Source of the DNA: an uncultured Clostridia bacterium
Lineage (GTDB): Bacteria; Bacillota; Clostridia; Oscillospirales; Oscillospiraceae
Length of the DNA stretch: 37,129 nt
Assembly: GCA_947649615.1 (NCBI GenBank)
Contig: CANSSG010000026.1
Location: 1 to 37,129, forward strand
Direction: 5' to 3'
In this document: in pieces, positions 172-18,254 of the stretch
How positions within the stretch are numbered: the first letter of the stretch is position 1
How the letters are laid out: every line of letters begins with the position of its first letter
Position numbers and translations under genes: made by a program
Notes under the pieces: model-generated
What the model was told of the DNA's origin: nothing
The model's input: the letters and a program-made list of their open reading frames with translations, nothing else
The model's database searches: none

Positions 172-2283
172 TTATCCAAAGAGGTGGAAATGGACTACCA
201 CGGTGGCAAAAACGATGGAGACCATGCTCAGCAGCTTAATCAGGATGTTGATGGCGGGACCGGAAGTATCCTTGAAGGGGTCGCCGATGGTGTCGCCCAC
301 GATGGCAGATTTATCGTTCTTGCTCCCCTTGCCGCCGTAGTGTCCGGACTCCACGTATTTCTTGGCGTTGTCCCAAGAGCCGCCGGAATTGGACATAAAC
401 ACGGCCAGCAGGAACCCGGAAGCCGTCGCGCCGCACAGCAGCCCGATAACGCCCGCAGGACCCAGCAGCAAGCCGCCCACAATGGGTACGCCCACCGCGA
501 TCAAGGTCGGCACCACCATCTCCTTCAAGCTGGCCTTGGTGCAGAGGTCAACGCAGCGGGCAAAATCCGCGTCCACCTTGCCCTCGATAATCCCGGGCAT
601 TTCCTTAAACTGCCGCCGGACTTCCAGCACTACGCTGTGGGCGGCCTTGCCTACGCTGCCCATGGTAATGGCGGCGAAGATAAACGCCAGGCATGCGCCC
701 ACAAAGATGCCCACCAGCACCACCGGATTCATCACGCTCATATCCAGCGCCATGTCCGGGGCCAGGGTCTCCACCTTTTCCACGTAGGAGGCAATCAGCG
801 CCAGCGCCGTCAGCGCGGCGGAGCCGATGGCGAAGCCCTTGCCGGTAGCGGCGGTGGTGTTGCCCAGGGAATCCAGCGCGTCAGTCCGCTCACGGACAAC
901 GGGGTCCAGGCCGCTCATCTGTGCGATGCCGCCCGCGTTGTCGGCAACAGGCCCGTAGGCGTCGGTAGCCAAAGTGATTCCCAGCGTGGACAGCATGCCG
1001 ACCGCCGCCAGCGCGATGCCATACAAGCCCATGGCGTTCCGCGCCCCATCGGTCAGCCCCAGCCCGGATACATAGTAAGCGATCAGGATGCACCCGCTGA
1101 CCGTCAGCACCGGCAGCATAGTGGAGCGCATGCCCAAGCTCAGGCCGTCAATCACCAGCGTAGCGGTACCGGTTACGGAGGAAGCCGCCAGGCTTTGGGT
1201 CGGCACATATGTATCGGAGGTGTAGTACTCCGTAAACCGTCCGATCAAAACGCCGGAGAACAGCCCCGCCAGGATAGCCACATACAGCCCGATGTAATCC
1301 TTGCCCAGGAAGAACCACACGATAGGGAAGGCCGCCACGGCAATAATGACTGCGGACGTATTGGTACCCCGGCGCAGGGCCTTCAGCAAGGTCATCTGGT
1401 CGGTAGACTCCCCCGTCCGAACCAGCAGGGAGCCGATAATGGAAGCCACCACGCCCACCGCCGCAATCAGCAGGGGTACCGCGAAGGCGCTGAGGTTATC
1501 CACGGACTCAATATACCCGAAGGCGATAACGCCCAGGGAGCAGGAGGAAATCAAGGAACCGACATAGGACTCATAGAGGTCGGCGCCCATACCGGCCACG
1601 TCGCCCACGTTATCGCCCACGTTGTCGGCGATGGCGGCGGGGTTCCGGGGGTCGTCCTCGGGGATGCCGGCTTCCACCTTGCCCACCAGGTCGGCGCCCA
1701 CGTCGGCGGCCTTGGTAAAGATGCCGCCGCCCACACGGGCGAACAGGGCCATAGAGCTTGCGCCCATGCCGAAGGTCAGCATGGCGGCGGTGATGTCATT
1801 AAGCGGCAGGTCGAACACGTACTTCAGCAGCAGGTACCATCCGGAGATATCCAGCAGGCCCAGGCCCACCACGGTGAAGCCCATGACGGTTCCGGCGGAG
1901 AAGGCCACCTTCAGGCCGGAGTTCAAGCTCTCCCGGCAGGCGTTGGCCGTACGGGCGTTGGACGCGGTAGCGATTTTCATGCCGACGAAGCCGCTCAGGC
2001 CGGAGAAGAAACCGCCGGTAATAAACGCGAAGGGTACGAACCAGGTCAGAAAGCCCAGCGCGGCCATCAAGCAGAAGACCGCGAACATACACGCGAAGAA
2101 AATCATAACGACGCTGTATTGCCGCCGCAGGTAAGCGTTGGCCCCCTGCCGGATAAACGAGGCGATCTTCTTCATTTGGTCGGTACCCTCGGAGAACGAG
2201 AGGGCGCGTTTCGCCATAAACACGGCGAACAGCAGGGCGCAGATGGAACCCAGTGCAGAAAAAATGATAAAGTACTGATTCAT
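172..2283 (-). CDS. hppA: Membrane-bound K+-dependent, probably Na+-pumping pyrophosphatase
   Basis: Integral membrane enzyme of 703 aa that couples PPi hydrolysis to ion export. The family signature DVGADLVGKVE is at residues 194-204, followed by the Asp-rich PPi/Mg loop (DNVGDNVGDVAG, 220-231). The GNTTAATGKG segment (474-483) has Ala and Gly where K+-independent enzymes have Lys and Thr, which marks the K+-dependent class. In ...DLYESYVGS (235-243) a Glu sits at the helix-6 gate position used by Na+-PPases, with Gly four residues later where H+-PPases carry Glu, so Na+ transport is inferred. The start ATG at 2283 follows GGAGAAACGCT. Upstream in-frame codons lack a ribosome site and were left out. 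A 273-nt structured gap separates it from the mgtC-like gene, so it may have its own control. Confidence 0.96.
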   Translation of the reverse strand: MNQYFIIFSALGSICALLFAVFMAKRALSFSEGTDQMKKIASFIRQGANAYLRRQYSVVMIFFACMFAVFCLMAALGFLTWFVPFAFITGGFFSGLSGFVGMKIATASNARTANACRESLNSGLKVAFSAGTVMGFTVVGLGLLDISGWYLLLKYVFDLPLNDITAAMLTFGMGASSMALFARVGGGIFTKAADVGADLVGKVEAGIPEDDPRNPAAIADNVGDNVGDVAGMGADLYESYVGSLISSCSLGVIAFGYIESVDNLSAFAVPLLIAAVGVVASIIGSLLVRTGESTDQMTLLKALRRGTNTSAVIIAVAAFPIVWFFLGKDYIGLYVAILAGLFSGVLIGRFTEYYTSDTYVPTQSLAASSVTGTATLVIDGLSLGMRSTMLPVLTVSGCILIAYYVSGLGLTDGARNAMGLYGIALAAVGMLSTLGITLATDAYGPVADNAGGIAQMSGLDPVVRERTDALDSLGNTTAATGKGFAIGSAALTALALIASYVEKVETLAPDMALDMSVMNPVVLVGIFVGACLAFIFAAITMGSVGKAAHSVVLEVRRQFKEMPGIIEGKVDADFARCVDLCTKASLKEMVVPTLIAVGVPIVGGLLLGPAGVIGLLCGATASGFLLAVFMSNSGGSWDNAKKYVESGHYGGKGSKNDKSAIVGDTIGDPFKDTSGPAINILIKLLSMVSIVFATVVVHFHLFG

Positions 2284-2386
2284 AGCGTTTCTCCTTTTCT
2301 CTGATTTTTGATCTATCGCAATTCCCCGGTTGCGCACCCGGAGAAACGGACCCGAACGGCCCGCCTGCGGCAGGCCCTTGGAGGTT

Positions 2387-2556: not shown

Positions 2557-3285
2557 TTAAATACGGCTCCGGTCGGATGTGACGGAACTGGTATGGGGGT
2601 CCGCGCTGAGGTCGGACATGAATTTCCGCAGGCGCTCATCCGAGTGCCGTCCGCCAAAATCCGCCTTAAAACGGATTTTGAACCCAGCCTTCACCTCGTC
2701 CACATGGATGCTGTTGAGCGTGGCGTCGGCGTTCCCCGCCAAGGTATGGATCAATTCCAGCGTCCCCGCCACATCGGCGCAGGTCACGGAAAACAGATAC
2801 AGCGAATACCGGTTGTGCAGGATCTTCTTTTGCAGCCACTCAAACACAATGAGGGTGACCAAAATACAGATTCCGCCCACTACCGCCACCATATAGTATC
2901 CGCCGCCTACGGCAACGCCGAGACAGCCGGTGGCCCAAATACTGGCGGCGGTCGTCAGGCCCTTGATACTTGGCCCTTCCCGCATAATCGTCCCCGCGCC
3001 CAAAAAGCCCAGCCCAGTAATGACCTGCGCGCTCAAACGGGCGGGATCCGGGGTCGCGCCAAAGGGGCGGTACTGCCAGAAGATGAGTTGGCTGGTGGTC
3101 ATGACGGCGCAGGCCCCCAGGGCCACCAGCATATGGGTGCGCATACCGGCGGGGCGGTGGGTATACTCCCGCTCCGTACCGATTACCGCGCCAATCAGCA
3201 TGGCCAGCAGCATCCGCAGCCCAATATCCAGGGGCGTCAAGGCCAGTGAAGAGACGTCCACTACCGCCACAGGTGTATTTACCAT
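2557..3285 (-). CDS. MgtC/SapB-family inner-membrane protein
   Basis: 242 aa. The N-terminal ~145 residues form about five hydrophobic segments and carry the family hallmarks: an IGTERE motif after the first helix, HRPAGMRTHMLV, and GLGFLGAGTI followed by KGLTTAASIWATG. The C-terminal ~95 residues form a soluble domain of the size expected for the ACT-like domain of the longer MgtC proteins. In other bacteria MgtC proteins are linked to Mg2+ limitation and modulation of ATP synthase; the role here is unknown. ATG at 3285 follows GGAGGAAATATCATC. It lies 36 nt after the phosphoglycerate mutase homologue and is probably cotranscribed with it. Confidence 0.9.
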   Translation of the reverse strand: MVNTPVAVVDVSSLALTPLDIGLRMLLAMLIGAVIGTEREYTHRPAGMRTHMLVALGACAVMTTSQLIFWQYRPFGATPDPARLSAQVITGLGFLGAGTIMREGPSIKGLTTAASIWATGCLGVAVGGGYYMVAVVGGICILVTLIVFEWLQKKILHNRYSLYLFSVTCADVAGTLELIHTLAGNADATLNSIHVDEVKAGFKIRFKADFGGRHSDERLRKFMSDLSADPHTSSVTSDRSRI

Positions 3286-3321: not shown

Positions 3322-4890
3322 TTAGGTATACTGGGTCCCTTTGCCCAGGGTCAGGCATTCATAAGCTTTTTGAATCTTCGTGTAGTTGCCGTCCCGGTCC
3401 AGGGCGATGCCCCGGCCCACGCCGTCCACAATCTTACCCCGGCCAATTTTCCCCAGCCGCTCCTCCAACTGCCGGAGCATGGCGGGGGCGGAACCTGGCT
3501 CGGTGCTGCGGCCGTCGAAGATGATGTGCAGATAGATTTCCTCCACACCCTCCGCCATTTCCACCAGCATCAGCGGATAGTCAATACACCCGTGGCTGGA
3601 TTTCTCCGTAAGGTAGCTGAGCAGGTGCAGGGGCGTATGGTTCTCCCGGGCGTTGGCAATGGCCTGCAAGAACACAGGGTTGGTTTTGAAGGAGCCGTCC
3701 TGGATGGCCCGGTCCATGCGGACGTCGTCCTGGGCCACCACCCGGCCCGCGCCCAGATTGGAGTGTCCGGCCTCGGAGTTGCCCGGCTTTCCGGCTTGCA
3801 GGCCCACGTCCTCCCCGGATGCCCGGAGCCTGCTGTTGGGGTATTTGGCCAGCAGGCCGTCCCAGGCGGGGGTGTTCGCGGAGTAGATGGCGTCCTTTTC
3901 ATCGGCGGTGCCGTAGCCCCAGCCGTCCAGGATGATCAGTATCATCTTCCGGTTCGTGAAATCCGCCGTATCAATCAGGCTCCTGCCCGTCATTTCCTCC
4001 GGCTGCTCCAGCCCCAAAACGCGCAGGACGGTGGGCGCGACATCCCCCAGCCGCCCGTCGTGAAGCTTCACCTCCCGGCCCTTGGGGTCCAGGACGATGA
4101 AGGGTACCAGGTTGGTGGTGTGGGCCACATGGGGCTTGCCTTCCTTATTATATAGGGTTTCAATGTTGCCGTGGTCGGCGGTGACGGCTACCACGTAGCC
4201 GTTGGCCTTGGCGTACTCCGCCACCTTGCCCACGTACTCGCTGACGGTGGCGGCGGCGGCCAGCTTGGCCTGGGAATTGGAGGTGTGGCCGATCACGTCG
4301 CCGTTGGCGAAGTTGGTGAGGATGAAGTCATACCCCTGGTCTACCGCGCCCTTCACCTTCTCCGCCACCTCCGGCAGGCTCAGCTCCGGCTGCTGGTCGA
4401 AGGGGATGCCCTTGGGAGAGGGGACGCATACGTCGTCTTCTCCCGGGAAGGGCTGGTTATAGCCGCCGTTGAAGAAGAAGGTTACATGGGCGTACTTCTC
4501 CGATTCCGCGCAGTGGAACTGCTTCAAGCCCGCGTCGGAAATGACCTGGGCCAATGGCTTTTGTACCTTTTCCGGCGCAAAAGCAATGGGCAGATCCTTG
4601 AATTTGTCATGGTACATGGTCATGATGACGAAGTTCAGATGCTCCATATAACCCCGGTCAAAGTGTTTGAAATCCGGGTCTACGAAAGCGTCGGTCAGTT
4701 CGATTTCCCGCTCGCCCCTCCGGCAGCAGAAAATTACCTGGTCGCCGTCCTTGATTTTCCCCACAGGGGTCCCCTCGCCGTCTACCTGGGCCAGCGGCTC
4801 CAGGTAATAGTCGGTCTGTCCCTGCTGGTAAGCCTGCTCCACGGCCTGGGCCAGCGCCTCGCCGCCCCGCAGGATGGTTTCTTCACGCAT
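3322..4890 (-). CDS. gpmI: Circularly permuted cofactor-independent phosphoglycerate mutase homologue
   Basis: 522 aa, close to the family's usual 505-515, but in swapped order. Residues 1-306 match the canonical region from about residue 205 to the C-terminus: GDQVIF with R58 and R61, EKYAHVTFFFNGG with K132, metal ligands D198 and H202 (GDVIGHT), D239-H240 (ADHGN), H257 (AHTTN), and the normal end EEMTGRSLI. After a short linker, residues 316-514 match the canonical N-terminus: MILIILDGWGYG (metal D322), the phospho-acceptor S372 in NSEAGH, H433, DGR (R461), R493, R499, ending AYECLTLGKG. The new termini thus fall inside the phosphotransferase domain, and the phosphatase domain becomes continuous. 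Asp after DGR (usual DGRDT) is Ser462. The ATG at 4890 has an AAGGAGG site 11 nt upstream, supporting this N-terminus. The family interconverts 3- and 2-phosphoglycerate using Mn2+; activity here is inferred. It sits between HAD and MgtC-like genes. Confidence 0.9.
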   Translation of the reverse strand: MREETILRGGEALAQAVEQAYQQGQTDYYLEPLAQVDGEGTPVGKIKDGDQVIFCCRRGEREIELTDAFVDPDFKHFDRGYMEHLNFVIMTMYHDKFKDLPIAFAPEKVQKPLAQVISDAGLKQFHCAESEKYAHVTFFFNGGYNQPFPGEDDVCVPSPKGIPFDQQPELSLPEVAEKVKGAVDQGYDFILTNFANGDVIGHTSNSQAKLAAAATVSEYVGKVAEYAKANGYVVAVTADHGNIETLYNKEGKPHVAHTTNLVPFIVLDPKGREVKLHDGRLGDVAPTVLRVLGLEQPEEMTGRSLIDTADFTNRKMILIILDGWGYGTADEKDAIYSANTPAWDGLLAKYPNSRLRASGEDVGLQAGKPGNSEAGHSNLGAGRVVAQDDVRMDRAIQDGSFKTNPVFLQAIANARENHTPLHLLSYLTEKSSHGCIDYPLMLVEMAEGVEEIYLHIIFDGRSTEPGSAPAMLRQLEERLGKIGRGKIVDGVGRGIALDRDGNYTKIQKAYECLTLGKGTQYT

Positions 4891-4906
4891 AATTGCAGCG
4901 CCTCCT

Positions 4907-5638
4907 TTATTTCAGCGGCGGGAAAATATCCAGCAGCTTCGCAAAATGGTCAATAAACAAATCGGGCTTGTTTTCCTCCGTGACTTCCTGGGGCTTTTTC
5001 CCCGGGTACTGCACGCCAATAGTCATACCCAACCCCGCCGCCTTGGCTCCCACGATGTCGCGGGCCAGGTTGTCGCCTACATAGCAGGTCCGCTTGGGGT
5101 CGCTGCCGCACTCCTCCAGGGCGTAGTAATAAATGGCGGGGTGGGGCTTGCGGATGAGGCAGACGGAGGATTGCTGCACCGTCTTGAAATAGGGCCGGAG
5201 CTGGTCGCGATCCAGCCATTCGTCCACTTCCTCCGTGCCCACCAGGTCGCTGACAATGCCGAGGGTATAGCCCCGGGCGTACAGCTCCTTGACGGTTTCG
5301 GCGCCGCCATCGGTGACAACCCGCTCGCCCTTGGTCCTGCGGTAGGCGTAGGTCATTTCCGCCGCCGCCGCTTCCACCTTTTCCTTGGGGAAGTCGTAGG
5401 CCAGCCAGCGGGTCCACAGCTCCTTCACAGGGGCTTCGCAGTAGAAGGTAAGCGCCCATTCCCGGTATTTGTCATAGCGGGGTTCGATGACGTCCCGGTA
5501 AAATTCCGCCGGGCCGGCGTCCACGCCCAGAAGGCGGGTGATGGCGGCCTTGGCTTCCAGCTGGTAGGCTTCATCCTTGCGGATGACCCGGAAGGTGTCC
5601 CCCAGGTCTATAAAAATGGTGTCGATTTGCTTTTCCAT
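4907..5638 (-). CDS. HAD-superfamily hydrolase, tandem paralogue 1
   Basis: 243 aa, first of four related HAD proteins. Motif I is D11-L-G-D-T, so the nucleophile Asp is present but the usual second Asp (+2) is Gly13. Motif II is the Ser of LGIVSD, motif III the Lys of IRKPHP, motif IV the GDNLARD acid pair. Between motifs I and II lies a helical cap with the conserved YDKYREWAL and LWTRWL segments shared by all four copies. Expected reaction is phosphate-ester hydrolysis of a small metabolite; the substrate cannot be told. ATG at 5638 is preferred over a TTG nine bases upstream because AAAGGGG lies 9 nt before it. It is 16 nt upstream of the phosphoglycerate mutase homologue. Confidence 0.85.
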   Translation of the reverse strand: MEKQIDTIFIDLGDTFRVIRKDEAYQLEAKAAITRLLGVDAGPAEFYRDVIEPRYDKYREWALTFYCEAPVKELWTRWLAYDFPKEKVEAAAAEMTYAYRRTKGERVVTDGGAETVKELYARGYTLGIVSDLVGTEEVDEWLDRDQLRPYFKTVQQSSVCLIRKPHPAIYYYALEECGSDPKRTCYVGDNLARDIVGAKAAGLGMTIGVQYPGKKPQEVTEENKPDLFIDHFAKLLDIFPPLK

Positions 5639-5658
5639 ATGTACCAACCCCTTTCCTA

Positions 5659-6381
5659 TTACTGCAAGATGGGAAGGCCTAAAATGTCAGAAAACGCATG
5701 CACGATGTAATCGGGCCGGTTTTCATCGGTGATGGTCTTTTTCGCCAGCTTCTCCGGGCTGATGAACAGGATGTTGGACCCGATCCCCGCCGCCTTGGCG
5801 CCGGTGATGTCCCGGCCCAGGTTGTCGGCCACGCTGACGCACTCGTCAGGCGCCAGCCCCAGTTCCGCGCAGCCTATGCGGTAGATTTCCGGGTCGGGCT
5901 TGCGGATATGGCACACGGAGGAGAGGACCACGGCGTCGAAATACTGGGCCAGGCCGTCCTCCCGGAGCCAGTCGGGAATCTCGTTTTCACCAATCAGGTT
6001 GGAAATGATGCCCAGGCGGTAGCCCCGGCCATACAAGCCGCGGATGACTTGCAGTCCGCCCGCCACCACGCGGCGCTTGCCCTTGACCTGGCGGTACTGG
6101 AAGGTCAGTTCATGGCATACGCGCGCTAGGGCGGCAGGGTCCATTTCCGGCAGCAGCCACTTGTGCCACAGTTCGAAGTCGCCGGCTTCCTTGTTCTCCG
6201 ACAGCGCCCAGTCGCGGTAGGGCAGGTAGCGCTCCTCCACCATGTCGGTGAAGGGCTGCACGTCCTCCCGGCCTGCCAGCTCGGCCATGCGCTTTTTGGC
6301 CTGCTCCTGGTGTTCGGGGGCCTCGTCGCAGATGCGCAGGGTGCCGCCTAAATCAAAAAATACGCCCTTGATCTTCTTCAT
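5659..6381 (-). CDS. HAD-superfamily hydrolase, tandem paralogue 2
   Basis: 240 aa. Motif I is D10-L-G-G-T, lacking the second Asp; motif II Ser in LGIISN; motif III Lys in IRKPDP; motif IV ADNLGRD, where the usual Gly before the first Asp is Ala. It shares the cap segments YLPYRDWAL and LWHKWLL with its neighbours, so the four genes arose by tandem duplication and then diverged considerably. ATG at 6381 follows AAGGATGGGG. It lies 20 nt before paralogue 1 and 15 nt after paralogue 3, consistent with one transcript. Substrate unknown. Confidence 0.85.
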   Translation of the reverse strand: MKKIKGVFFDLGGTLRICDEAPEHQEQAKKRMAELAGREDVQPFTDMVEERYLPYRDWALSENKEAGDFELWHKWLLPEMDPAALARVCHELTFQYRQVKGKRRVVAGGLQVIRGLYGRGYRLGIISNLIGENEIPDWLREDGLAQYFDAVVLSSVCHIRKPDPEIYRIGCAELGLAPDECVSVADNLGRDITGAKAAGIGSNILFISPEKLAKKTITDENRPDYIVHAFSDILGLPILQ

Positions 6382-6396
6382 AGACGCACCCCATCC

Positions 6397-7128
6397 TTAC
6401 CCTCTGGGAGGGAACAGGTCGAGCAGGTCCCGGATGGCCTTGATGCGGTAGTCCGGCATGACAGTGGGGGCCTTGCCCTCGCGGTCGGCGGTGCCGGCGT
6501 CTTCGTACAGGATCATGCTGCCATATCCGGCGTCTACGGCGCCCTCCACGTCCCGCACCGGGTTGTCGCCTACGTAGGCGCAGTTCTCAGGCGCGGAGCC
6601 GATGCAGCGGGAGGCCAGCAGGTAAATGGCCGGGTCGGGCTTGCGCAGGCGGACCTTTGAAGACAGGATGACGGTTTTAAAGCAGTCCGCCACGCCGTCA
6701 TGGCACATCCAGTCGGGGATTTCCGTTTCGGTAATCGTGTTGGCGATGATGCCCAGCTTGTATCCCCGCTGTTTCAGAGCCAGGAGGGTTTCTTTTACGT
6801 CGTCGTGCGGCACCCTGCGGCCGTCGTGGTCCCGCCACAGGCGGGTCAGCCGCGCCGCGTTTGGCGCAATCCGCTCCGCCGGATAGTCCGGCAGCAGGTA
6901 TTGCAGCCATAACTCCATCTCGGATACGTCCAGAAGGGTGTCCTTTGCCCACTTCCGGTATGCTTTCCAGTTGGCGGTCAGCTTTTCGAAGAACACATCG
7001 TGGCCTTCCTCCGCCCCCACCAGTTCCATCAGCGCCTTGTCCGCCGCCGCGGCAAATTCCGCGTCCTCCACTACGAAGCGGAGCGTTGCGCCTACGTCGA
7101 AAAAGATCGTGTCTATGTTGCGGTTCAT
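6397..7128 (-). CDS. HAD-superfamily hydrolase, tandem paralogue 3
   Basis: 243 aa. Motif I is D11-V-G-A-T and again lacks the second Asp. This copy also has Ala in the motif II Ser/Thr position (LGIIANT), making it the most eroded of the four. Lys in LRKPDP and the GDNPVRD acid pair remain. The cap carries WKAYRKWAK and LWLQYLL as in the paralogues. The ATG at 7128 follows AGGAGGACTACCT; an upstream in-frame extension begins inside the hairpin at 7164-7191 and has no ribosome site. It may have reduced catalysis or a binding role; that is inference. Confidence 0.83.
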   Translation of the reverse strand: MNRNIDTIFFDVGATLRFVVEDAEFAAAADKALMELVGAEEGHDVFFEKLTANWKAYRKWAKDTLLDVSEMELWLQYLLPDYPAERIAPNAARLTRLWRDHDGRRVPHDDVKETLLALKQRGYKLGIIANTITETEIPDWMCHDGVADCFKTVILSSKVRLRKPDPAIYLLASRCIGSAPENCAYVGDNPVRDVEGAVDAGYGSMILYEDAGTADREGKAPTVMPDYRIKAIRDLLDLFPPRG

Positions 7129-7163
7129 AGGTAGTCCTCCTGTTGATTTTTTTGCGGGGGCTG

Positions 7164-7191
7164 TTCTTTTCTTTGTGGACAAAGAAAAGAA
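7164..7191. terminator. A/T-rich perfect hairpin between HAD paralogues
   Basis: A 12-bp perfect stem (TTCTTTTCTTTG / CAAAGAAAAGAA) with a TGGA loop occupies the 79-nt gap between paralogue 4 and paralogue 3. It could be a partial terminator or mRNA-processing signal within the operon. It resembles the CTTTTT/AAAAAG hairpins at 9463-9493, 21351-21380 and 21761-21786. Confidence 0.5.
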
Positions 7192-7207: not shown

Positions 7208-7984
7208 TTATCTGCCCGATGGGCCTTGGGGGCGCGTGTTTTCTTGCTGGATGATGGCGGGGATCTCGTTTAGGCTTTCAATAAGATAGTCGGGGGCCAG
7301 GCCGCTGTTTTCTAAGCCTTTATCGCGCTTGGCCGCGCCGGGGTTCTTAATTTGGATCATTAAACGCCAGCCTGCGCTGCGGGCGCCGGCTACGTCCCGG
7401 GATAGTGTGTCGCCTACGTACGCAAGCTCTGGGGGGGATAGGTGCAGGCGGCGTTCCGCTACCCGGAAAATCTCGGGGGATGGCTTGCGGATGCCGGTTT
7501 CGCTGGATAGGACGATGCAGTCCATGTAATCGCGGACGCCGTATTCCTCTAAAAAATGGGGCGCGACCGACAGGGATATGATGTTGCTGATTAATCCCAG
7601 CTTCAAGCCCTGGGAGCGGAGGGCGTCCAGCGTTTCCTTTATGCAGGGGCGGCGGATGACGCGTACGCGCTCGTAATCGTAGAGAAAGCTTAGCTCCTCC
7701 GCAATGGGGGATAGCTTTTCGGGGCTTATGGCCCAGTCTTTTAAATACCAATTGCGCCATATTTCCGCCGGCGGCAGCTCGCGCAGGTCTTTTTCTGACG
7801 CGCGCTTGTAGGCTTCGCCGTTTTCATGGAGCTTCTTTGCCAGCGTTTCTGGGGGGACGGCCAGCGCAATGCCGTAGTCCTGCAAACGGTCCAGAAGGCG
7901 GCGGGCAAACCATATGTCCCGCCCCTCCGGGGAGTCCGCTGTATGTAGGGTGCCGCCCAGGTCGAACAGGACCCCTCGTATCAT
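7208..7984 (-). CDS. HAD-superfamily hydrolase, tandem paralogue 4 (first gene of operon)
   Basis: 258 aa. Motif I is D8-L-G-G-T without the second Asp; motif II Ser in LGLISN, Lys in IRKPSP, motif IV GDTLSRD. Cap segments include LPPAEIWRNWYL, comparable to the other three. The ATG at 7984 follows GAAGGAGGGCGAGACAAA; the longer open frame upstream runs across the promoter at 8055-8083 and is not coding. As the promoter-proximal gene it heads the HAD/gpmI/mgtC-like transcription unit. Its last residues (after the HAD core) are an unconserved polar tail. Confidence 0.85.
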   Translation of the reverse strand: MIRGVLFDLGGTLHTADSPEGRDIWFARRLLDRLQDYGIALAVPPETLAKKLHENGEAYKRASEKDLRELPPAEIWRNWYLKDWAISPEKLSPIAEELSFLYDYERVRVIRRPCIKETLDALRSQGLKLGLISNIISLSVAPHFLEEYGVRDYMDCIVLSSETGIRKPSPEIFRVAERRLHLSPPELAYVGDTLSRDVAGARSAGWRLMIQIKNPGAAKRDKGLENSGLAPDYLIESLNEIPAIIQQENTRPQGPSGR

Positions 7985-8054
7985 TTTGTCTCGCCCTCCT
8001 TCCGGCTGCCTGCCGCAGCGGATTTCAAACGTTTCCGTTCTTGTCGTTGCCAAG

Positions 8055-8083
8055 ATTGTATCGCATTTCCCCGCGTTTGTCAA
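8055..8083 (-). promoter_or_regulatory. Sigma-A promoter of the HAD operon
   Basis: On the minus strand, TTGACA (8083-8078), a 17-bp spacer and TACAAT (8060-8055). Near-consensus with ideal spacing, giving a leader of roughly 65 nt before the ATG at 7984. Confidence 0.85.
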
Positions 8084-8388: not shown

Positions 8389-9393
8389 ATGAAGAATGTT
8401 ACCATCAAAGATGTTGCAAAAGCGGCCGGGGTGTCCTATTCGACCGTCTCCCGCGCACTGTCCGGCAGTCCGGAAATCAGCGTGGACACCCGCGAACGCA
8501 TCCTTCAGGTCTGTAAGGAAATGAATTACACCGCCAATACCGTCGCCCGCGCTATGGTTATGAAAAGCACGAAGCTGCTGGGCCTGATCCTTACGGGGGT
8601 CAATAATCCGTTTATGTCGGATTTGGCCTACCATATCGACCGGCAGGCCAGGGCCAGGGGGTACAATATTATTTTGTGCAATTCTTCCAGGGACCAGGAA
8701 CAGGAAAAGGAACTGTTTGAACTGATGATCGGACGGCAGGTGGACGGCATCATCCTCGTCCCCTCCGGGCCGGAGAGCTATGAACGGCTGCGGCCCTACC
8801 TCTCCCGTCTCCCTACGGTGTTCGTGGGGGAGAACCTGCGGGAGGTGCCGGAGAGTTATGTCTCTGTGGACAACTACCGGGGGGCTTACCTGGGGGTCGA
8901 GTACCTCTATGGCCTGGGGCATCGGGACATCCTTTACTTCGGGCGGCGGCGGGGCAGCACGACCCATCAGCTTCGCTCCGAGGGCTATACCGCCGCCTGC
9001 CTGGATTTGGGGCTGGCGCCCCAGTATTGCAATAATACGTTCCCGCTGACTTCCATCAAATACGGCTATCAGCTTGCCAAGCAGCTTTTTGCCCAGGAAC
9101 GGAAGTTTACCGCCATCTTCGCCGCTACGGATACCAATGCTTTGGGCATTATGGGCGCGGCGGAGGAAAACGGCATCCGGATTCCGGAGGATGTTTCCTT
9201 GCTGGGGTTTGACAATATCCGGTATTCCAGCTTGCCCAGGATCAATTTGACTACGATTGAACAGCCCATGAAAATGCTGGCCTCTGTGGCGGTGGACAGC
9301 TTGCTGGATAAGATTCAGAGCGAACTGGCGGGGTATTCCCATCGGATCTTGACGCCGACGCTGATCGAGCGGTCGTCCTGCCGGGCGGTTTGA
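8389..9393 (+). CDS. LacI-family transcriptional regulator
   Basis: 334 aa. N-terminal helix-turn-helix (VTIKDVAKAAGVSYSTVSRA, residues 4-23) and hinge with the ARAM/KSTKLLGLI transition, then a periplasmic-binding-protein-like effector domain (about 62-330) containing GVNNPF, DGIILVPSG, a GHRDILYFG segment and the late DVSLLGFDNIRYS motif typical of the family. Such proteins bind operator DNA and release it on binding a sugar or nucleoside. No sugar-use genes adjoin it, so the ligand and targets are unknown; the two neighbouring operons and itself are the closest candidates. ATG at 8389 has GGAGG 7 nt upstream. Confidence 0.93.
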   Translation: MKNVTIKDVAKAAGVSYSTVSRALSGSPEISVDTRERILQVCKEMNYTANTVARAMVMKSTKLLGLILTGVNNPFMSDLAYHIDRQARARGYNIILCNSSRDQEQEKELFELMIGRQVDGIILVPSGPESYERLRPYLSRLPTVFVGENLREVPESYVSVDNYRGAYLGVEYLYGLGHRDILYFGRRRGSTTHQLRSEGYTAACLDLGLAPQYCNNTFPLTSIKYGYQLAKQLFAQERKFTAIFAATDTNALGIMGAAEENGIRIPEDVSLLGFDNIRYSSLPRINLTTIEQPMKMLASVAVDSLLDKIQSELAGYSHRILTPTLIERSSCRAV

Positions 9394-9631: not shown

Positions 9632-10609
9632 TCAGATCATTGGAAAGACGGCCCGCGCCAGCAGGCGGGCGCCGCCAAACAGCAGCCATGATAAAAACGC
9701 CGTCCCGTACATGAGACGGCAGGCCCGGCGGATGTCGCCGGGGGCAATCTCCCGGATTGGGTCGCCGATGCAGGGCTTTTTGTGCAATGCGCCGTGGTAC
9801 CAGGCGTCTCCTGCAAGCCGCAGGCCCAGAAGGCCCGCACAGGCCGACTCCGTTTGGGCGGAGTTGGGGCTTGCATGCTTGTGGCGGTCCCGGAGGAATA
9901 TCCGCCAGCCGTTGGGAAGGTCAAAGCCCTGCGCCCAGCCGGACGCCAGCATCAGAAGGGCCGATATCCTGGATGGGAAATAGTTCATTGCGTCGTCCAG
10001 CTTCGCCGGGATGAACCCTATATCCCGGTAGGGCGGCTCGATGTAGCCCAGCATGGAATCCATCGTGTTGACCGCCTTGTAAAAAAAGCCTAAGGGCGCG
10101 CCGCCTATGGCAAGAAACAGCAGCGGGGCGGTAACGCCGTCGGAGGTGTTTTCCGCTACCGTCTCTACAGCCGCCCGGGTGATGCCGGAAGCGTCCAGGC
10201 GGGCCGTGTCGCGGCCGACAATCATGCTTACCGCCCGGCGCGCGGCCTCTACGTCCCCACCTTCCAGGGCGGTGCAGACCTTCATGCTCTCCGTGCGCAG
10301 GGATTTCGCCGCTAGAATCTGCCAGCACATCAGGCTCTCTACCAGCAGGCGGAGCCAAGGGCTGAACGCCTGGCAGAGATGGAGGATGGCGGCCGGTACG
10401 ATGGTGGAAATGGATGCTACGGCCAGCCACAGTGCGCCGCCGGCCCAGCGCTCGCCGCTGGGGGTGGCGGGGAAAAGCCGCCGCAGAAGCTTTTCGCCAA
10501 GGGATATCAGCTTCCCTATCGCTGCTACCGGGTGGGGGATGCAGTGGGGGTCGCCTACGATCAAATCAATCACAAAACCCGCCGCCAGGGCGCACAGCGT
10601 CCCATCCAT
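9632..10609 (-). CDS. cbiB: Adenosylcobinamide-phosphate synthase
   Basis: 325 aa membrane protein that attaches the aminopropanol arm to adenosylcobyric acid. Typical family features are LIVGDPHCIPHPVAAIG near the N-terminus, IVGRDTARLD, VAENTSDGVTAPLL, KAVNTMDSMLGY and a C-terminal hydrophobic segment. The ATG at 10609 shares its A with the TAA stop of the preceding fusion gene (TAATG), so translation is coupled; an upstream in-frame start inside the neighbour is disfavoured. Last gene of the cobalamin operon, ending before the hairpin cluster. Confidence 0.93.
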   Translation of the reverse strand: MDGTLCALAAGFVIDLIVGDPHCIPHPVAAIGKLISLGEKLLRRLFPATPSGERWAGGALWLAVASISTIVPAAILHLCQAFSPWLRLLVESLMCWQILAAKSLRTESMKVCTALEGGDVEAARRAVSMIVGRDTARLDASGITRAAVETVAENTSDGVTAPLLFLAIGGAPLGFFYKAVNTMDSMLGYIEPPYRDIGFIPAKLDDAMNYFPSRISALLMLASGWAQGFDLPNGWRIFLRDRHKHASPNSAQTESACAGLLGLRLAGDAWYHGALHKKPCIGDPIREIAPGDIRRACRLMYGTAFLSWLLFGGARLLARAVFPMI

Positions 10610-12594
10610 TACGCGTCCCCCCGTCCTTGGAATAGGAACAGGCACACCGGGTTCCCTCCCGCCATGAGATGGTATGGACCCGCTTCGCGGCTGCGGGCCG
10701 CGGTGAGGGAAACCGCTTCCGCCTCGGAGAAGCGGGGGTCCTTCAGCAGCGCTGTCAGCTCTGCCGCCGATTCCAATGTTGCCGCCGCCGCCGCAAGGCG
10801 GACGCCGGGGTTTTTCATCAGCAGAAGGTCTACGATTTCCCGGAGCTGGCCGGAACTGCCGCCCAGGAAGGCGTGGGTGGGGGGCGGCAGGGCGGCGCAG
10901 GCGGCGGGGGCCGTGCCGGGGACGGCTTCCAGGTTGGAGAGGTGGAATTTCTTCCGGTTTTCCTCCAGCAGGGACAGCGCGGCGGCGTCCTTCTCAATGG
11001 CGTATACCTTGCCCTCCCGGGCTTGCAGGGCCAACTCCACGGAGACGGAGCCGGTGCCTGCGCCGACGTCCCAGCAAACTGCCCCGCGGGCCGGGCGCAG
11101 CAGGGAGAGGGCGCAGGCGCGGATTTCGCGCTTGGTCATGGGGATTGCCCGCCCGTCCGCCTTTTCGCCCCGCTGGAAGCAGTGGTCCGGCAGGCCGGGC
11201 GTGAAGGGCCGGGCCTGGGGGTTCTCAATCAGGACCGCGCTGAGGGCGTCAAAATCCTTTTCCGCCAGTTCGCGGGCGGGGCCTTGGGTGATGCGCTCTT
11301 CCGGATAGCCCAGGCGTTCGCCGACGCTGACAAGGACTTCCGGCAGACCCGCCTCCGCCAGCGTCCGGCAGAGGTCTGACGCGCCGCGCCCGCCCCCGAC
11401 CAGGGCGAATACCCGGCGGTTCTGCCATACGTCCGGCACGATGTCCCGGGCGCGGCCGTGGAGGCTGACGGGGACGGCGTCTTCATAGGAGACGCGGAGA
11501 CGGGCGCACAGCGTTTGCAGGGAGCTGACGCCGGGGAGGACCTCCGTCTCGCAGTCCGGGAGAAGGGGGAGCAGGCGCTTGGCGCCGCTGAAAAATCCGG
11601 CGTCGCCGGACAGGGCTACCGCAAAACGGCGGCAGGCCCGCTTCCCGCGGATGCAGGCGGCAATGGCCTCCGGCGCGACCGCTTCCACCCGGTCCTGGCC
11701 GGGGCGGGCGGCTGCTTCCAGCATCCGGGGTGCGCCAATGATGCAGTCTGCCGCCGCCAGGGCTTTGGCCGCTTCCACCGTCATGCCGTCCCCGCTTCCG
11801 GGTCCTATGCCTACCAGGGAGACCTTGGGGCGGAAGCGCAGGCCAAAACGCCCGGTCAGGAAATCCAGCGCCGCCGCAAAATCCAGGCCCTCGCGCTGGG
11901 GGGGGCGGCCTACTACCACCAGGACCGCGCCCGCTTCCCGGGCGGCGGCGGCTTTTTCATGGAAGCCCCCGGCCCCGCCGGCGTCCTTCGTTACCATGTA
12001 TTTGGCGTTGACGCTGCGCAGCATGGCCGCATTCAGTTCCTTGGAAAACGGGCCTTGCATCGCCAGTACGCGGTCCGGACCCAGGCCGGCCTCCCGGCAG
12101 GCGGCCAGGGACGCTTCCATAGGCAGCACCCGGGCGTAGGCGCGCTGGGCGAAGCTGGGGAGGGCGGCGTATTTTGACAGCTCCTTGCTACCGGTGGTCA
12201 GAAGGATGCTCCCTTCCGTATGGCGCAGGAAGCTTACGGCTGCGGGAATGTCCGGAACCCAGACCGCGTCCTCCGGCGCGTCCTCGCAGCGGCGCAGCAG
12301 GCGCAGGTAGGCCGTCCCGGTTTCCCGGCAGGCGTTGGCGATGTTTTCCGTCGCTTCCACCGCGTAGGGGTGGGTGGCGTCAACTACCAGGTCGTATTTT
12401 TTCAGGCGGAACCGCCCCGCCATCTCCGGCTCCGACAGCCGTCCGGTGAAGACCGCCAGGCCGGGGCGGGGCGGGAGGAGCGCCCCGCCGTACGCCGTGG
12501 CCACGAAGGCATCCGCCTCCACAGGCTGCCCCGCCAGCAGCGCCAGCAGCTCGCGGCCCTCCGTGGTGCCGGCGAAAACGCACAGGCTATACAT
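10609..12594 (-). CDS. cbiJ/cbiET: CbiJ-CbiE-CbiT triple fusion of cobalamin biosynthesis
   Basis: 661 aa joining three enzymes. Residues 1-245: cobalt-precorrin-6A reductase (FAGTTEGRELL, DATHPYAVEATENI, TGSKEL, VTKDAGGAGGFHEK). Residues about 257-465: CbiE, a tetrapyrrole methyltransferase starting VSLVGIGPGSGDG with the ALSGDAGFFSGA and LPGVSSLQ loops. Residues about 470-661: CbiT, the decarboxylating methyltransferase with MTKREIRA and the SAM motif WDVGAGTGSVSVELA (508-522). The methylations at C5 and C15, decarboxylation and reduction are consecutive late steps of ring modification, so the fusion could channel intermediates. CbiET fusions are common; CbiJ on the front is less so. ATG at 12594, AGGGGG 6 nt upstream, overlaps cbiH by 8 bp. 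Confidence 0.94.
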   Translation of the reverse strand: MYSLCVFAGTTEGRELLALLAGQPVEADAFVATAYGGALLPPRPGLAVFTGRLSEPEMAGRFRLKKYDLVVDATHPYAVEATENIANACRETGTAYLRLLRRCEDAPEDAVWVPDIPAAVSFLRHTEGSILLTTGSKELSKYAALPSFAQRAYARVLPMEASLAACREAGLGPDRVLAMQGPFSKELNAAMLRSVNAKYMVTKDAGGAGGFHEKAAAAREAGAVLVVVGRPPQREGLDFAAALDFLTGRFGLRFRPKVSLVGIGPGSGDGMTVEAAKALAAADCIIGAPRMLEAAARPGQDRVEAVAPEAIAACIRGKRACRRFAVALSGDAGFFSGAKRLLPLLPDCETEVLPGVSSLQTLCARLRVSYEDAVPVSLHGRARDIVPDVWQNRRVFALVGGGRGASDLCRTLAEAGLPEVLVSVGERLGYPEERITQGPARELAEKDFDALSAVLIENPQARPFTPGLPDHCFQRGEKADGRAIPMTKREIRACALSLLRPARGAVCWDVGAGTGSVSVELALQAREGKVYAIEKDAAALSLLEENRKKFHLSNLEAVPGTAPAACAALPPPTHAFLGGSSGQLREIVDLLLMKNPGVRLAAAAATLESAAELTALLKDPRFSEAEAVSLTAARSREAGPYHLMAGGNPVCLFLFQGRGDA

Positions 12595-13318
12595 TCCGAT
12601 ACCCCCTGGGCGTCACCATCTTCCCGGCGATGGAGGCCGTCTGGCTGTTGCCGATGAATACGGTGCAGAACATGTCCGCCTCATAGGCGCATAAGTCCTT
12701 TAAAGAAAGAATAGCCGCTTCCTCGCCCGGACGTCCGATATTGCGGACTACGCCGCAGATGAGGGATTCCGGCAGGGTCTCCAGCAAAATCCCACAGGCC
12801 CGCCGCAGGTGGCCGGGCCGGCCCTTGCTGGCCGGGTTGTAGAGGACGATGGCCAAATCCGCCGCCGCCGCCGCCGCTAAACGCGCTTCGATCTTCTCCC
12901 AGGGGGTCAGGCGGTCGCTGAGGCTGATGACCGCGAAATCGTGGGTCAAGGGCGCGCCCAGTACCGCCGCGCCGCTACAGGCCGCCGTCAGGCCGGGGAT
13001 GACGGCAACCGCCGGGTCCGCCTCCCCGCCCCGTATCTGGTAAATCAAGCCCGCCATGCCGTATACCCCGCTGTCGCCGGAGCACACCATGGCTACATCG
13101 CGCCCCGACCGGGCCGCGTCCAGCGCTATCCGGCACCGGTCCGCTTCCTTGGTCATGGGGGTCGTGATAAATTCTTTGTCCGGATACCGCTCCCGGACCA
13201 GGTCCACGTAAACGTGATAGCCTACGATCACCTGGCACTCACGCAGGGCGCGGTCCGCCCGGACCGTCATGTTGCCGTAATCGCCGGGGCCTATGCCCAC
13301 TACCGTCAGTTTACCCAA
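12587..13318 (-). CDS. cbiH: Cobalt-precorrin-3B C17-methyltransferase
   Basis: 243 aa SAM-dependent tetrapyrrole methyltransferase that methylates C17 with ring contraction. Motifs are VGIGPGDYGNMT (N-terminal), CSGDSGVYGMAG, IPGLTAACSGAAVLGAP followed by DFAVISLSDRLTPW, and LYNPASKGRP, the last two characteristic of CobJ/CbiH. It starts with TTG at 13318: GGGAGG lies 6 nt upstream and no ATG or GTG fits. The 8-bp overlap with cbiG and with the next gene indicates coupled translation. Confidence 0.94.
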   Translation of the reverse strand: MGKLTVVGIGPGDYGNMTVRADRALRECQVIVGYHVYVDLVRERYPDKEFITTPMTKEADRCRIALDAARSGRDVAMVCSGDSGVYGMAGLIYQIRGGEADPAVAVIPGLTAACSGAAVLGAPLTHDFAVISLSDRLTPWEKIEARLAAAAAADLAIVLYNPASKGRPGHLRRACGILLETLPESLICGVVRNIGRPGEEAAILSLKDLCAYEADMFCTVFIGNSQTASIAGKMVTPRGYRNV

Positions 13319-14336
13319 AGCGCACCTCCCAATGCTCTGCCGCCGCTGCCACGGTCACGCCATGGGCGGCGGCCTTTTTTACTATCATCTGCCCGCCGCC
13401 CGCCGCCGCCGCCCGCTCGCAGACGTTGTCTGCGCCGGTCACGCGCTGGACGAACGGCGAAGCGGCGAAGGTCCCCGGTACGGCTTGCAGCTCCGGGGCG
13501 GAGTGGCATGCCAAGGGCCAGTTCCGCTCCCGGCAGAAGGCCAGAAGGCCGGGTTCGTCCTTCTTAAGGTCTATGGTGGATACCCCCGCTACCGCCGCCG
13601 GGTGGATGGAGGCTTCCGCCAGGACCTCGTCCACCAGAGCCGCAATGGCGGAAGCTTCCGTCCCGCGGCGGCACCCAATCCCCAGGCGGACCACCGGGGG
13701 GATCAGCCGCAGGGTGGTGGCAAAGGGGCTGTTCCGCCGCCAGGTGATGTAAATGCCCACCGTGCCGCCCTCCCCTGAAACCAGGCCGGGGGGCAAGGGT
13801 CCGGATAGGGGGAAATCACTCAAAAGCGGGACGCTTCCTTCCAAAATCGCGGCGGAAACCGCCTTTGCCTCCTGGATGCCGTCGATATATAAGCCGTTTT
13901 CCGCCGCCCAGGCGTCGGCGGAGAAGCGGCCGTTGACATCCGTGGCGGTGCTGACCGCCGCCAGGGCGCCGGTGCGCTCCGCCAGCTTTACCGCCAGGGC
14001 GTTGGCCCCGCCGATGTGGCCGGAGAGCAGCGGGACGGCGCAGCGCGCCAGCTCGTCTATTGACAACACGGCGGGGTCCGTCCGCTTGTCCCGCAGGTGG
14101 GGCGCGATGGCCCGGACCGCGATGCCGCAGGACCCTACGAACAGGATGGCGTCCGCCCACTGGAACACCGGGCCGCAGAAGTCCGCCAGGGGGGGGACGG
14201 CCGGTTCCCAGGGCGGGTCCGCCAGGCGTTGGGGCGCGAAGAAACGGACCGCGTCCCCTCCGCCCGAGAGGGCCTCCGCGCAGCGGCGGGCCGTGGACTG
14301 GCCCTGGCGGGTGAAGGCGAAAACGGCAAGGTTCAC
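13311..14336 (-). CDS. cbiG: Cobalt-precorrin-5A hydrolase
   Basis: 341 aa enzyme that opens the delta-lactone of cobalt-precorrin-5A and releases acetaldehyde, a marker of the anaerobic route. The N-terminal domain has FVGSCGIAVRAIAP and LLSGHIGGANALA (104-116); the C-terminal CobE-like domain begins near LGIGCRRGTEA. Starts with GTG at 14336, overlapping the cbiF stop in GTGA, with a GGAGG run just upstream. Confidence 0.93.
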   Translation of the reverse strand: MNLAVFAFTRQGQSTARRCAEALSGGGDAVRFFAPQRLADPPWEPAVPPLADFCGPVFQWADAILFVGSCGIAVRAIAPHLRDKRTDPAVLSIDELARCAVPLLSGHIGGANALAVKLAERTGALAAVSTATDVNGRFSADAWAAENGLYIDGIQEAKAVSAAILEGSVPLLSDFPLSGPLPPGLVSGEGGTVGIYITWRRNSPFATTLRLIPPVVRLGIGCRRGTEASAIAALVDEVLAEASIHPAAVAGVSTIDLKKDEPGLLAFCRERNWPLACHSAPELQAVPGTFAASPFVQRVTGADNVCERAAAAGGGQMIVKKAAAHGVTVAAAAEHWEVRFG

Positions 14337-15091
14337 GCCTCCGCCCCCTTACGGTACTCCGTGGTGAAGCCCGGATCGTAGAGCTTGGAGCGCAGGTAGC
14401 CGCCCCCTAAACAGCCGCCTACAATCAGCAGGGAAGTTTTGGTCAGGCCGTTGCCGGCTACCGTCTGCGCCAGCGTCCCTACGGTGCAGCGGAAAAGCTT
14501 TTCCTCCGGCCAGGTGGCCTTGTAGACGACCGCCGCAGGGGTGTCGGGCGCATAGCCCCCCGCCAGGAGGTCTTCTTGCAGCTTCCCGGCCAGGCTGGCG
14601 CTGAGAAACAGCACCATGGAGGCCTGGTGGGACGCCAGGGCGCGGATGGATTCCCCCTCCGGAACCGGGGTCCGCCCGGCGGCGCGGGTGATGATGACCG
14701 TTTGGCTTACGCCGGGCAGGGTGTACTCCGCCCGCAGGGACGCCGCCGCCCCGCAGAAGGAACTGACCCCCGGACAGACGTCGTAGGGGATGCCCAGTTC
14801 CTCCAACTGGTCGAACTGCTCCCGTACCGCGCCGTAAATGCTGGAGTCGCCTGTGTGCAGGCGGACTGTGGCCTGGCCGCGCTCCTCGGCGGCTTTTATT
14901 ACGGCTAAGACCTGCTCTAAGGTCATCTCCGCGCTGTTGTGGATGGCGCAGCCTGGTTTTGTATATTGCAGAAGCGCGGGGTTGACCAGGCTTCCGGCGT
15001 AAATGACTACGTCCGCTTCGCCCAGCAGCCGTGCGCCCCGGACCGTAATCAAGTCCGCCGCGCCGCTGCCCGCGCCTACGAAATGTACCAT
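14333..15091 (-). CDS. cbiF: Cobalt-precorrin-4 C11-methyltransferase
   Basis: 252 aa SAM-dependent methyltransferase acting at C11. It shows VGAGSGAADLITVRG, VIYAGSLVNPALL, HTGDSSIYGA, CPGVSSFCGAAASL and the RTPVPEGESIRAL segment that separates CobM/CbiF from its relatives. ATG at 15091 follows AAAAGGAGACGACGAC; a 24-nt gap separates it from cbiD, the only real gap inside the operon. Confidence 0.94.
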   Translation of the reverse strand: MVHFVGAGSGAADLITVRGARLLGEADVVIYAGSLVNPALLQYTKPGCAIHNSAEMTLEQVLAVIKAAEERGQATVRLHTGDSSIYGAVREQFDQLEELGIPYDVCPGVSSFCGAAASLRAEYTLPGVSQTVIITRAAGRTPVPEGESIRALASHQASMVLFLSASLAGKLQEDLLAGGYAPDTPAAVVYKATWPEEKLFRCTVGTLAQTVAGNGLTKTSLLIVGGCLGGGYLRSKLYDPGFTTEYRKGAEA

Positions 15092-15115
15092 GTCGTCGTC
15101 TCCTTTTGGTGGTTT

Positions 15116-16249
15116 TTATGGGGTCTCCCGCAGCTTCGCCAGCAGTTCCCCGGCGCTGCCGGTGCGGGACAGCTCGCCGCTGGCCTTGGAGAAGAGGATG
15201 GCCCCCGTTTCCATGCCCCCCTCCACCCTCGCCGCAAGCTGGCTGGATATGCGCTGGGTCAGAAGGCGGAAGGCTGGCGCAAAGCAGCCGGCCTCCCGCA
15301 GGATGCGGACGGCCTCGTCGCAGGCCGCGCATTCCAGGATTTCTCCCGCCCTTACGCTGTCCAGGCCCGCCGCCGCGCCGCAGGCCGCCAGGATATCCAT
15401 CCGGCAGTCGCCCCAGCGGGAATGGGTGTTGAACATCCCCCCCGCCAGCTTCACCAGCTTCCCTGCATGGCCCACCAGCAGCGCGCCGCGAAAGCCTAGG
15501 CCGCGGCAGAGGTCCAGGGCGTCCCCTATAAAATTAGAGGTCTGCACCGCCAGCGAGGGATCCATGCCAAGGCTGTCCCGGATGTACTCCGAACCGTAGT
15601 TCCCCGGCGTCAGCAGCACGTAGGCCGCGCCGCCCTCCCGCCGCTGGCGCAGCTCTACGGCTATCGTGTCTATCAGGGCTTGCTCGCTCATTGGCTCCAC
15701 GATGCCGGTGGTCCCCAGGATCGAGATGCCCCCGGTGATGCCCAGGCGGGGGTTGAAGGTCTTTTTTGCCAGGGCTTCGCCCCCTGGGACGAAAACCGTG
15801 GCCTTCAGGCCGGAAAAATCGTCCGCCAGCCGCTGGATTTCCTCCATGCCCTCCCGTATCATCCGGCGGGGGACGCTGTTGATCGCCGCCGCCCCCACCG
15901 GCTGGTCCAGGCCAGGCTTCGTGACGCGGCCTACGCCGGGGCCGCCGTCGATGGAAATGCCCGGGCGCGCCTGCCGCTCTACGGTGGCGAAAATCAATGC
16001 GCCGGTGGTGGCGTCGGGGTCGTCGCCGCCGTCCTTCTCAATGGCGCAGGTGACGGCATTGCCGCAGGCTTCTATCTCGCGCACCGGCAAAACCAAGCGG
16101 ACGCCCTTCGGCGTGGACAGCTCCACGCGCTCCAGGTGGCGCCCGGTCAGAAGCATGTACGCCGCCGCCTTCGCCGCCGCCGCTGCGCAGGAACCGGTGG
16201 TGTAGCCCAGGCGGAGGCGTTTGCCGCCCTTGACAATGTATTCCTCCAT
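15116..16249 (-). CDS. cbiD: Cobalt-precorrin-5B C1-methyltransferase
   Basis: 377 aa. CbiD methylates C1 in the anaerobic pathway and is unrelated to the other methyltransferases. The diagnostic RLGYTTGSCAAAAAKAA lies at the N-terminus, with GISIDGGPGVGRVTKPGL, GTTGIVEPMSE and a C-terminal VGHAGKLVKLAGGMFNTH. ATG at 16249 shares a base with the cbiC stop (TGATG); a GTG one codon upstream is an equal alternative. Confidence 0.94.
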   Translation of the reverse strand: MEEYIVKGGKRLRLGYTTGSCAAAAAKAAAYMLLTGRHLERVELSTPKGVRLVLPVREIEACGNAVTCAIEKDGGDDPDATTGALIFATVERQARPGISIDGGPGVGRVTKPGLDQPVGAAAINSVPRRMIREGMEEIQRLADDFSGLKATVFVPGGEALAKKTFNPRLGITGGISILGTTGIVEPMSEQALIDTIAVELRQRREGGAAYVLLTPGNYGSEYIRDSLGMDPSLAVQTSNFIGDALDLCRGLGFRGALLVGHAGKLVKLAGGMFNTHSRWGDCRMDILAACGAAAGLDSVRAGEILECAACDEAVRILREAGCFAPAFRLLTQRISSQLAARVEGGMETGAILFSKASGELSRTGSAGELLAKLRETP

Positions 16250-18223: not shown

Positions 18224-18254
18224 TTCCGCGCCCCCTTCCTCCAAGTTTTTCTTC

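Follow-up and report, generated by a model that had tools for sequence, protein, structure and literature searches.

The window analysed here is a stretch of 37,129 nucleotides, contig CANSSG010000026.1 of an uncultured Clostridia bacterium (Oscillospiraceae; assembly GCA_947649615.1). At 3322..4890 on the minus strand it carries a gene for a protein of 522 amino acids that descends from the cofactor-independent phosphoglycerate mutase (iPGM, GpmI) and in which the two halves of that enzyme are swapped. Sequence comparison suggests that the protein folds into two domains and is probably active as a metal-dependent phosphotransferase, that one ancient circular permutation of iPGM gave rise to it, and that its substrate is a compound other than 3- or 2-phosphoglycerate (3-PG, 2-PG); we consider this reading probable. 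The permuted phosphotransferase would thus be neofunctionalised, and its possible action on 2,3-bisphosphoglycerate (2,3-BPG) is a speculative assignment. An earlier note on this DNA had called the protein a permuted phosphoglycerate mutase (PGM). The name stands as a statement of ancestry but not of activity, since residue D154 and its neighbours are changed and other PGMs are present in the same genomes.

The permuted order of the halves in this open reading frame (ORF) is near certain. Residues 1-306 (3973..4890, minus strand) are the former C-terminal part of iPGM, comprising the rest of the transferase domain and most of the phosphatase domain, and residues 314-522 (3325..3951, minus) are the former N-terminal part, as also indicated by Foldseek. 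In the alignment to PDB entry 1ejj, residues 15-306 matched chain positions 218-509 (230.6 bits) and residues 314-521 matched positions 4-213 (144.5 bits). The gap between the two matches, residues 307-313 (3952..3972, minus), forms the linker between the old C-terminus and the old N-terminus; it is seven residues long instead of the approximately nine first proposed. The Pfam models PF01676 and PF06415 each matched the protein in two stretches, and the reversed order that the earlier note had suggested looking for was found: the best PF01676 stretch (profile 64-251, its C-terminal part) lies at residues 105-295, and the best PF06415 stretch (profile 2-131, its first part) follows at residues 393-520. 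The iPGM model TIGR01307 gave the same picture, its positions 214-504 matching residues 14-306. The protein thus does not have the iPGM order of phosphatase N-part, transferase domain and phosphatase C-part. Its new termini lie within the transferase domain at approximately 1ejj residue 214-217, and not near residue 205 as first suggested. Twelve distinct PDB sequences matched the protein to E 0.001; the two that were aligned have the canonical order, and the best-stretch positions of the other full-length iPGMs also point to it. The fold of the permuted protein is predicted to be intact. For the former N-terminal half by itself the predicted model was poor (pLDDT 71.0, pTM 0.58), as expected, since it consists of pieces of two domains. 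In a Foldseek search with this half, iPGM structures still ranked first.

The ORF itself proved real, and its strand, left unstated before, is the minus strand. It begins with ATG, and 10 nt before this start lies the previously noted ribosome binding site AAAGGAGG (4901..4908, minus). On the plus strand, frame 1 across 3322-4890 contains a stop, and the plus-strand ORFs overlapping this region were taken as shadows. A scan of the window for RNA families and tRNAs found none.

The same junction recurs in many genomes. In a search of named genomes the best 80 of 571 matches were kept, and all of these were permuted by motif order. The 89 permuted loci gave 81 distinct open frames, some loci being the same contigs, and five of the 81 frames are cut off or broken. 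The junction is present in 80 of the 81; the remaining frame (L076) is gapped there. The spacing from the MxG motif to the DGWG motif is 19-22 residues in those 88 of 89 relatives in which both motifs were matched. Among the relatives are the isolates Oscillibacter valericigenes An860 and An890 and Oscillibacter sp. 1-3. Others are genomes from metagenomes, several of them from gut or rumen according to their titles, and are labelled Oscillospiraceae, Clostridia, Clostridiales, Lachnospiraceae and Bacillota, among others. One permuted relative (L150:3083-4828, minus strand, 581 amino acids) carries some 60 additional residues where the window protein has residues 270-278, before the junction.

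The permuted gene is patchily distributed. Counting the window genome each time, it was found in 5 of 25 genus members searched, in 6 of 300 family genomes (E <= 1e-80) and in 2 of 394 order genomes (E <= 1e-85). In a phylum sample, 12 of 398 genomes carry it at E <= 1e-85, and all of these except the window genome belong to a second branch, found in other families of this phylum, with the same cut (40-45% identity). A further second-branch genome, G746, fell short of this cut-off and was added from its operon, raising the count to 13 of 398. Three of the 17 genomes in the class of G718 have the gene. The permutation described in the earlier note is thus real, but it is not a one-off: it marks a family whose members fall into two or more deeply separated branches. 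For the tree, 118 rows, with canonical order restored, were reduced to 83 sequences by thinning at 93% identity. All permuted proteins form one group in it (ultrafast bootstrap 100), set off by a branch 0.97 substitutions per site long; the split separates permuted sequences from canonical ones plus 1ejj, without a deeper outgroup. Each of the two permuted branches is likewise supported at 100. Within the genus, the ratio of nonsynonymous to synonymous substitution rates (dN/dS) was 0.108-0.146 for six pairs of permuted genes and 0.020-0.053 for canonical gpmI of the same pairs; between-genus values were left unused because dS is high. The permuted gene is under purifying selection, less strict than that on the glycolytic gpmI. 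A phage or plasmid origin was rejected: viral contigs held no relative, the viral structure library showed no match at E <= 0.001, and the plasmid and phage collections gave 44 and 22 matching records, none of at least 60% identity. The matches listed from them (15 and 10) were all in two pieces, as for canonical gpmI.

The residue comparison, in 1ejj numbering, covers 30 sequences of canonical order and 87 distinct permuted ones; of 32 canonical sequences, two (L031 and L173) could not be split by the rule applied and were left out. The catalytic roles of 1ejj residues, that of D154 included, are taken here as background. The two-metal site and nucleophile (D12, S62, D403, H407, D444, H445 and H462) are invariant in permuted and canonical sequences and complete in both permuted branches. 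H123 and K336 are also invariant, as are R153, R185, R191, R261 and R264 wherever the alignment has a letter. The nucleophile S62 aligns with Ser372 of the window protein (codon 3775-3777, minus), and the retention of this serine, of the metal ligands and of the substrate Arg/Lys residues had been recognised correctly before. The same is true of Ser462 (codon 3505-3507, minus), which replaces the Asp of DGRDT and aligns with D154; both codons lie in the former N-terminal part. At the D154 position, Ser was found in 85 of 85 permuted sequences with a letter there, and Asp in 30 of 30 canonical ones. The changes G121S, V122S and S124G occur in 87 of 87 permuted and 0 of 30 canonical sequences. 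N259C, F260R, P262G and A265E occur in 86 of 86 permuted sequences and are absent from the 30 canonical ones, and H125 is replaced by C, S or N in permuted sequences. F260R provides the permuted proteins with one extra invariant arginine. None of the 30 aligned canonical-order genes has the residues of the permuted clade. The changed positions presumably line or neighbour the substrate pocket. This pattern indicates that the phosphoryl-transfer machinery is kept and its surroundings are rebuilt.

In comparison with known iPGMs (GpmI; TIGR01307; PDB 1ejj, 1o98), the permuted proteins share both domains and the residues listed above as invariant, with 40-41% identity over the larger half. They differ in the swapped halves, in the fixed substitutions, in having operons of their own and in coexisting with canonical GpmI or apgM. 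As the order of parts and D154 both define iPGM and neither is found here, we do not file the permuted protein as an iPGM. With apgM (TIGR00306) and phosphopentomutase the window protein has the alkaline phosphatase superfamily core in common, but its match to the apgM model reaches only 31.2 bits against a cut-off of 320.

Each of the 21 permuted genomes tested has a further PGM. A canonical iPGM is present in 18 of them (in two contig pieces in G020; in G293 the copy is 40% identical to the gpmI of the window genome), and the remaining three have apgM over the cut-off. A replacement of the housekeeping PGM by the permuted gene was rejected on these counts. The window genome has both apgM and the canonical gpmI that the earlier note had proposed to look for, the latter at G000:C3:110392-111897. 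The cofactor-dependent PGM model TIGR01258 was over its cut-off in none of 11 genomes.

The operon of the second, distant branch offers a hint at the substrate. In the families f67, f80 and f92 it comprises genes for a GntR/UTRA regulator, a 447-aa protein, a substrate-binding protein (SBP), a fused permease and an ATPase, followed by the permuted gene; family scans were made on the genes of one genome (G718), and other genomes were assigned by similarity. By sequence, the 447-aa protein is a cyclic 2,3-diphosphoglycerate synthetase (cDPGS; 1.3e-133 to PDB 8ork). Four such bacterial genes, from genomes of the window's phylum without a 2-phosphoglycerate kinase match over cut-off (L130:3864-5207, L129:3916-5256, L134:1067-2398 and L139:3143-4522), encode proteins that match no Pfam model over cut-off. 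A cDPGS was found in 8 of the 398 phylum-sample genomes, and 7 of these 8 also have the permuted gene; in six genomes the two lie on one contig, in the same operon. The permuted-gene and cDPGS samples were taken as the same 398 genomes because their counts and listed handles coincide. The co-occurrence gave a Fisher value of 4.6e-11, or 4.7e-9 without G746, with relatedness ignored (4 genera, 3 families). None of 19 genomes without the permuted gene had a cDPGS at the cut-offs used, these being genomes of the window's own class and unmatched to the distant families. In G940, cDPGS and a truncated permuted gene lie on different contigs. In G893 the ATPase gene adjoins the permuted gene, but the contig begins at this point, and cDPGS was not found; G985, whose contig ends inside the ATPase gene, was not judged. 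Model NF003259/PRK04220, which we take to represent 2-phosphoglycerate kinase (2PGK), was over its cut-off in none of 10 genomes, with one weak match in G746. The bacterial cDPGS in the operon of part of the distant branch recalls methanogen cyclic 2,3-diphosphoglycerate (cDPG) metabolism, which consists of 2PGK and cDPGS. Unlike it, the distant branch lacks a 2PGK match over cut-off, its operon also encodes an ABC importer, a GntR regulator and the permuted enzyme, and cDPGS is absent from the window genome. Among solved structures, 4r72, presumably AfuA, and the pyridoxal phosphate-binding protein 6wce are nearest to the SBP encoded in the distant operon. AfuABC and P5PA are ABC importers of phosphorylated small molecules (PMC4546632, PMC8427247).

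Also within the distant branch, the genus g322 of family f86 (four genomes) has the permuted gene in other surroundings. In three of four f86 loci read, a phosphohexomutase-like gene with PGM_PMM domains follows it directly (L131:9926-11638, L132:6890-8602 and L154:2142-3854; mutually 66-71% identical).

We propose that, in the permutation, a short linker came to bridge the former N- and C-termini, and new termini were opened in the transferase domain. Following iPGM chemistry, the substrate phosphate would be transferred to Ser372 at the two-metal site and from there to another hydroxyl or to water. The substrate would be a compound other than 3-PG or 2-PG, possibly a phosphorylated molecule that resembles glycerate but carries an additional negative group. 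For the cDPGS-linked branch 2,3-BPG may be the best candidate, given that an arginine is gained, that the D154 carboxylate is lost and that the gene is linked to cDPGS and the importer. As cDPGS was found in none of 10 permuted genomes tested of its order, the window branch may act on a phospho-compound that is related to this one but not the same, alongside HAD proteins and a PfkB kinase, with a LacI-type regulator in control. Several findings weigh against a new, 2,3-BPG-like substrate. The eight cDPGS genomes represent only 4 genera of 3 families. The 10 of 10 permuted genomes without cDPGS in the window's order include the window genome, and the four f86 genomes also have none except one weak match (G731, 2.7e-6), so that the case for 2,3-BPG draws on only a part of one branch. 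Most further solved relatives of the distant SBP are named iron-binding, which also sets it apart from the AfuABC and P5PA importers. The full substrate Arg/Lys/His set is kept, so phosphoglycerate may still be a substrate, and the window protein scored 492.7 bits with TIGR01307, above the cut-off of 330.65 (with NF003897 it scored 414.7 bits, below 862).

The last two findings, with the kept metal ligands and Ser62, would fit an enzyme that is still a PGM, that is a permuted isozyme, perhaps differently regulated, which converts 3-PG to 2-PG for a side pathway. We judge this unlikely, because D154 is Ser throughout the permuted sequences, many adjacent positions are changed, and another PGM exists in every genome tested, the window genome even having two. 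Moreover, no glycolysis gene was recognised among the labelled neighbours, though many ORFs in these surroundings carry no label and a transketolase pair follows in 16 of 45 long loci (45 of the 80 named-genome loci, over 14 kb and with a full-length protein). The role apart from glycolysis suspected in the earlier note is supported. A catalytically dead regulatory paralogue would agree with the altered residues beside the substrate set and with operon HADs that lack the second motif-I Asp; it is very improbable, as all seven metal and nucleophile residues are invariant in both branches. An assembly or binning chimera of two gpmI fragments could be suspected since many source genomes are metagenome-assembled and L076 is gapped at the junction. 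It was rejected, and we give it practically no weight: one junction occurs in nearly all distinct frames, from many assemblies and from isolates, the halves of the window protein share just 47% and 40% identity with the gpmI of its own genome, and the permuted proteins have clade-specific residues. The earlier note's reservation that the junction might prove unsupported was thus not borne out.

Two further explanations place the enzyme at 2,3-BPG in opposite directions. In a catabolic version, cDPG or 2,3-diphosphoglycerate would be imported, for example from lysed methanogens, a reversed cDPGS would make ATP, and the permuted enzyme would remove or move a phosphate to give 2-PG or 3-PG. The gene order from regulator through cDPGS and importer to permuted gene fits this, and the missing 2PGK match over cut-off (apart from the weak one in G746) argues against the methanogen route of synthesis. 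According to PMC1224877, the cDPGS of M. fervidus can run in both directions, and Methanobrevibacter smithii accumulates cDPG. However, cDPGS prefers synthesis, which is exergonic by ~10 kJ/mol (PMC12136491), and the cDPGS of another methanogen looks irreversible; we regard this version as rather unlikely. In a biosynthetic version, the permuted enzyme would be a mutase from 1,3-bisphosphoglycerate to 2,3-BPG that feeds cDPGS and replaces 2PGK. The presence of cDPGS without a 2PGK match over cut-off would agree with it, and the loss of the D154 carboxylate together with F260R would be in keeping with a second phosphate and with an acyl phosphate as the donor. But it leaves the importer unexplained, and the window branch has no cDPGS; we hold it to be improbable.

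In the window branch, the permuted gene is the last one of an operon that encodes HAD paralogues and is linked to LacI. Upstream of it on the minus strand lie HADa (4907..5647; motif I DLGDT), which adjoins the permuted gene in most loci, HADb (5659..6381; DLGGT), HADc (6397..7182; DVGAT) and HADd (7208..7984; DLGGT), found in 41, 41, 44 and 38 of the 45 long loci, respectively, the HADd label including more distant HADs. The HADd ORF reaches 8206, and its likely start is the ATG at 7984 after GGAGGG. The divergent LacI-family regulator gene (8389..9393, plus strand) is present in 45 of 45 long loci, and a PfkB kinase gene lies near the permuted gene in 42. Since the window contig begins just past the pyrophosphatase gene, its PfkB gene, if present, would lie off the contig end. 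Of the operon partners named in the earlier note, the HADs are core, as are LacI and PfkB, but the MgtC family protein (2557..3285, minus) is accessory and variable (19 of 45). Equally accessory is the H+-pyrophosphatase (172..2286, ORF to 2394, minus; PF03030, 859.5 bits; 16 of 45). The ABC importer is variable in this branch (ATPase 19, SBP 20 of 45), as is the transketolase pair with an iron alcohol dehydrogenase (16 of 45). The split transketolase pair, named from sequence reading, lies downstream of the permuted gene (L085, L087, L090-L093, L095, L097, L098, L100-L102, L110, L111, L113 and L116), and several of these loci are labelled Oscillibacter or Dysosmobacter. Phosphatases of the HAD superfamily have the motif I DxDxT. 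Among 298 operon HAD sequences examined, motif I was DxGxT in all 287 in which it was found, and DxDxT was not encountered; these HADs may act on substrates with a good leaving group or may not be phosphatases.

The palindrome AAACGTTT at 8027..8034 (no strand) is a candidate LacI operator. Of the 67 intergenic regions between LacI and HAD genes, 57 contain it, compared with about 1% of mononucleotide shuffles; its single copy in the window is unsurprising alone, as 24 of 100 shuffles contain at least one. A promoter-like site, TTGACA-17-TACAAT, lies before HADd (8055..8083, minus; 11 of 12 consensus bases). Such sites, a consensus match only, number 5 in 9.6 kb against a shuffle mean of 3.1. 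Adjoining the LacI gene, a cobalamin biosynthesis cluster (CbiB, CbiJ fusion, CbiG, CbiD, CbiC and CbiA-type) was noted at 9632-18283 (minus).

As the window protein passes the TIGR01307 equivalog cut-off, genes of this kind are likely to be named gpmI. The earlier note knew of no described natural permutation of iPGM, and we found none in the literature searched, which leaves most subscription journals outside its coverage. To our knowledge, natural circular permutations are rare in which the cut falls within a single domain of a two-domain enzyme and which are maintained throughout a clade. In this family the permutation coincides with changed substrate surroundings, which makes the family a testable case of rearrangement with neofunctionalisation. 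Tentatively, and with considerable doubt, the permuted clade may be a new enzyme family for 2,3-BPG or cDPG turnover in Bacillota-type bacteria, in which cDPGS and importer partners serve one branch, for example in salvage of methanogen cDPG, and in which the permutation and the changes around the substrate would predate the split of the branches. In PMC10690619, cDPG is called exclusive to hyperthermophilic methanogens. The linkage of the permuted gene to a bacterial cDPGS raises the question of whether bacteria make or consume cDPG.
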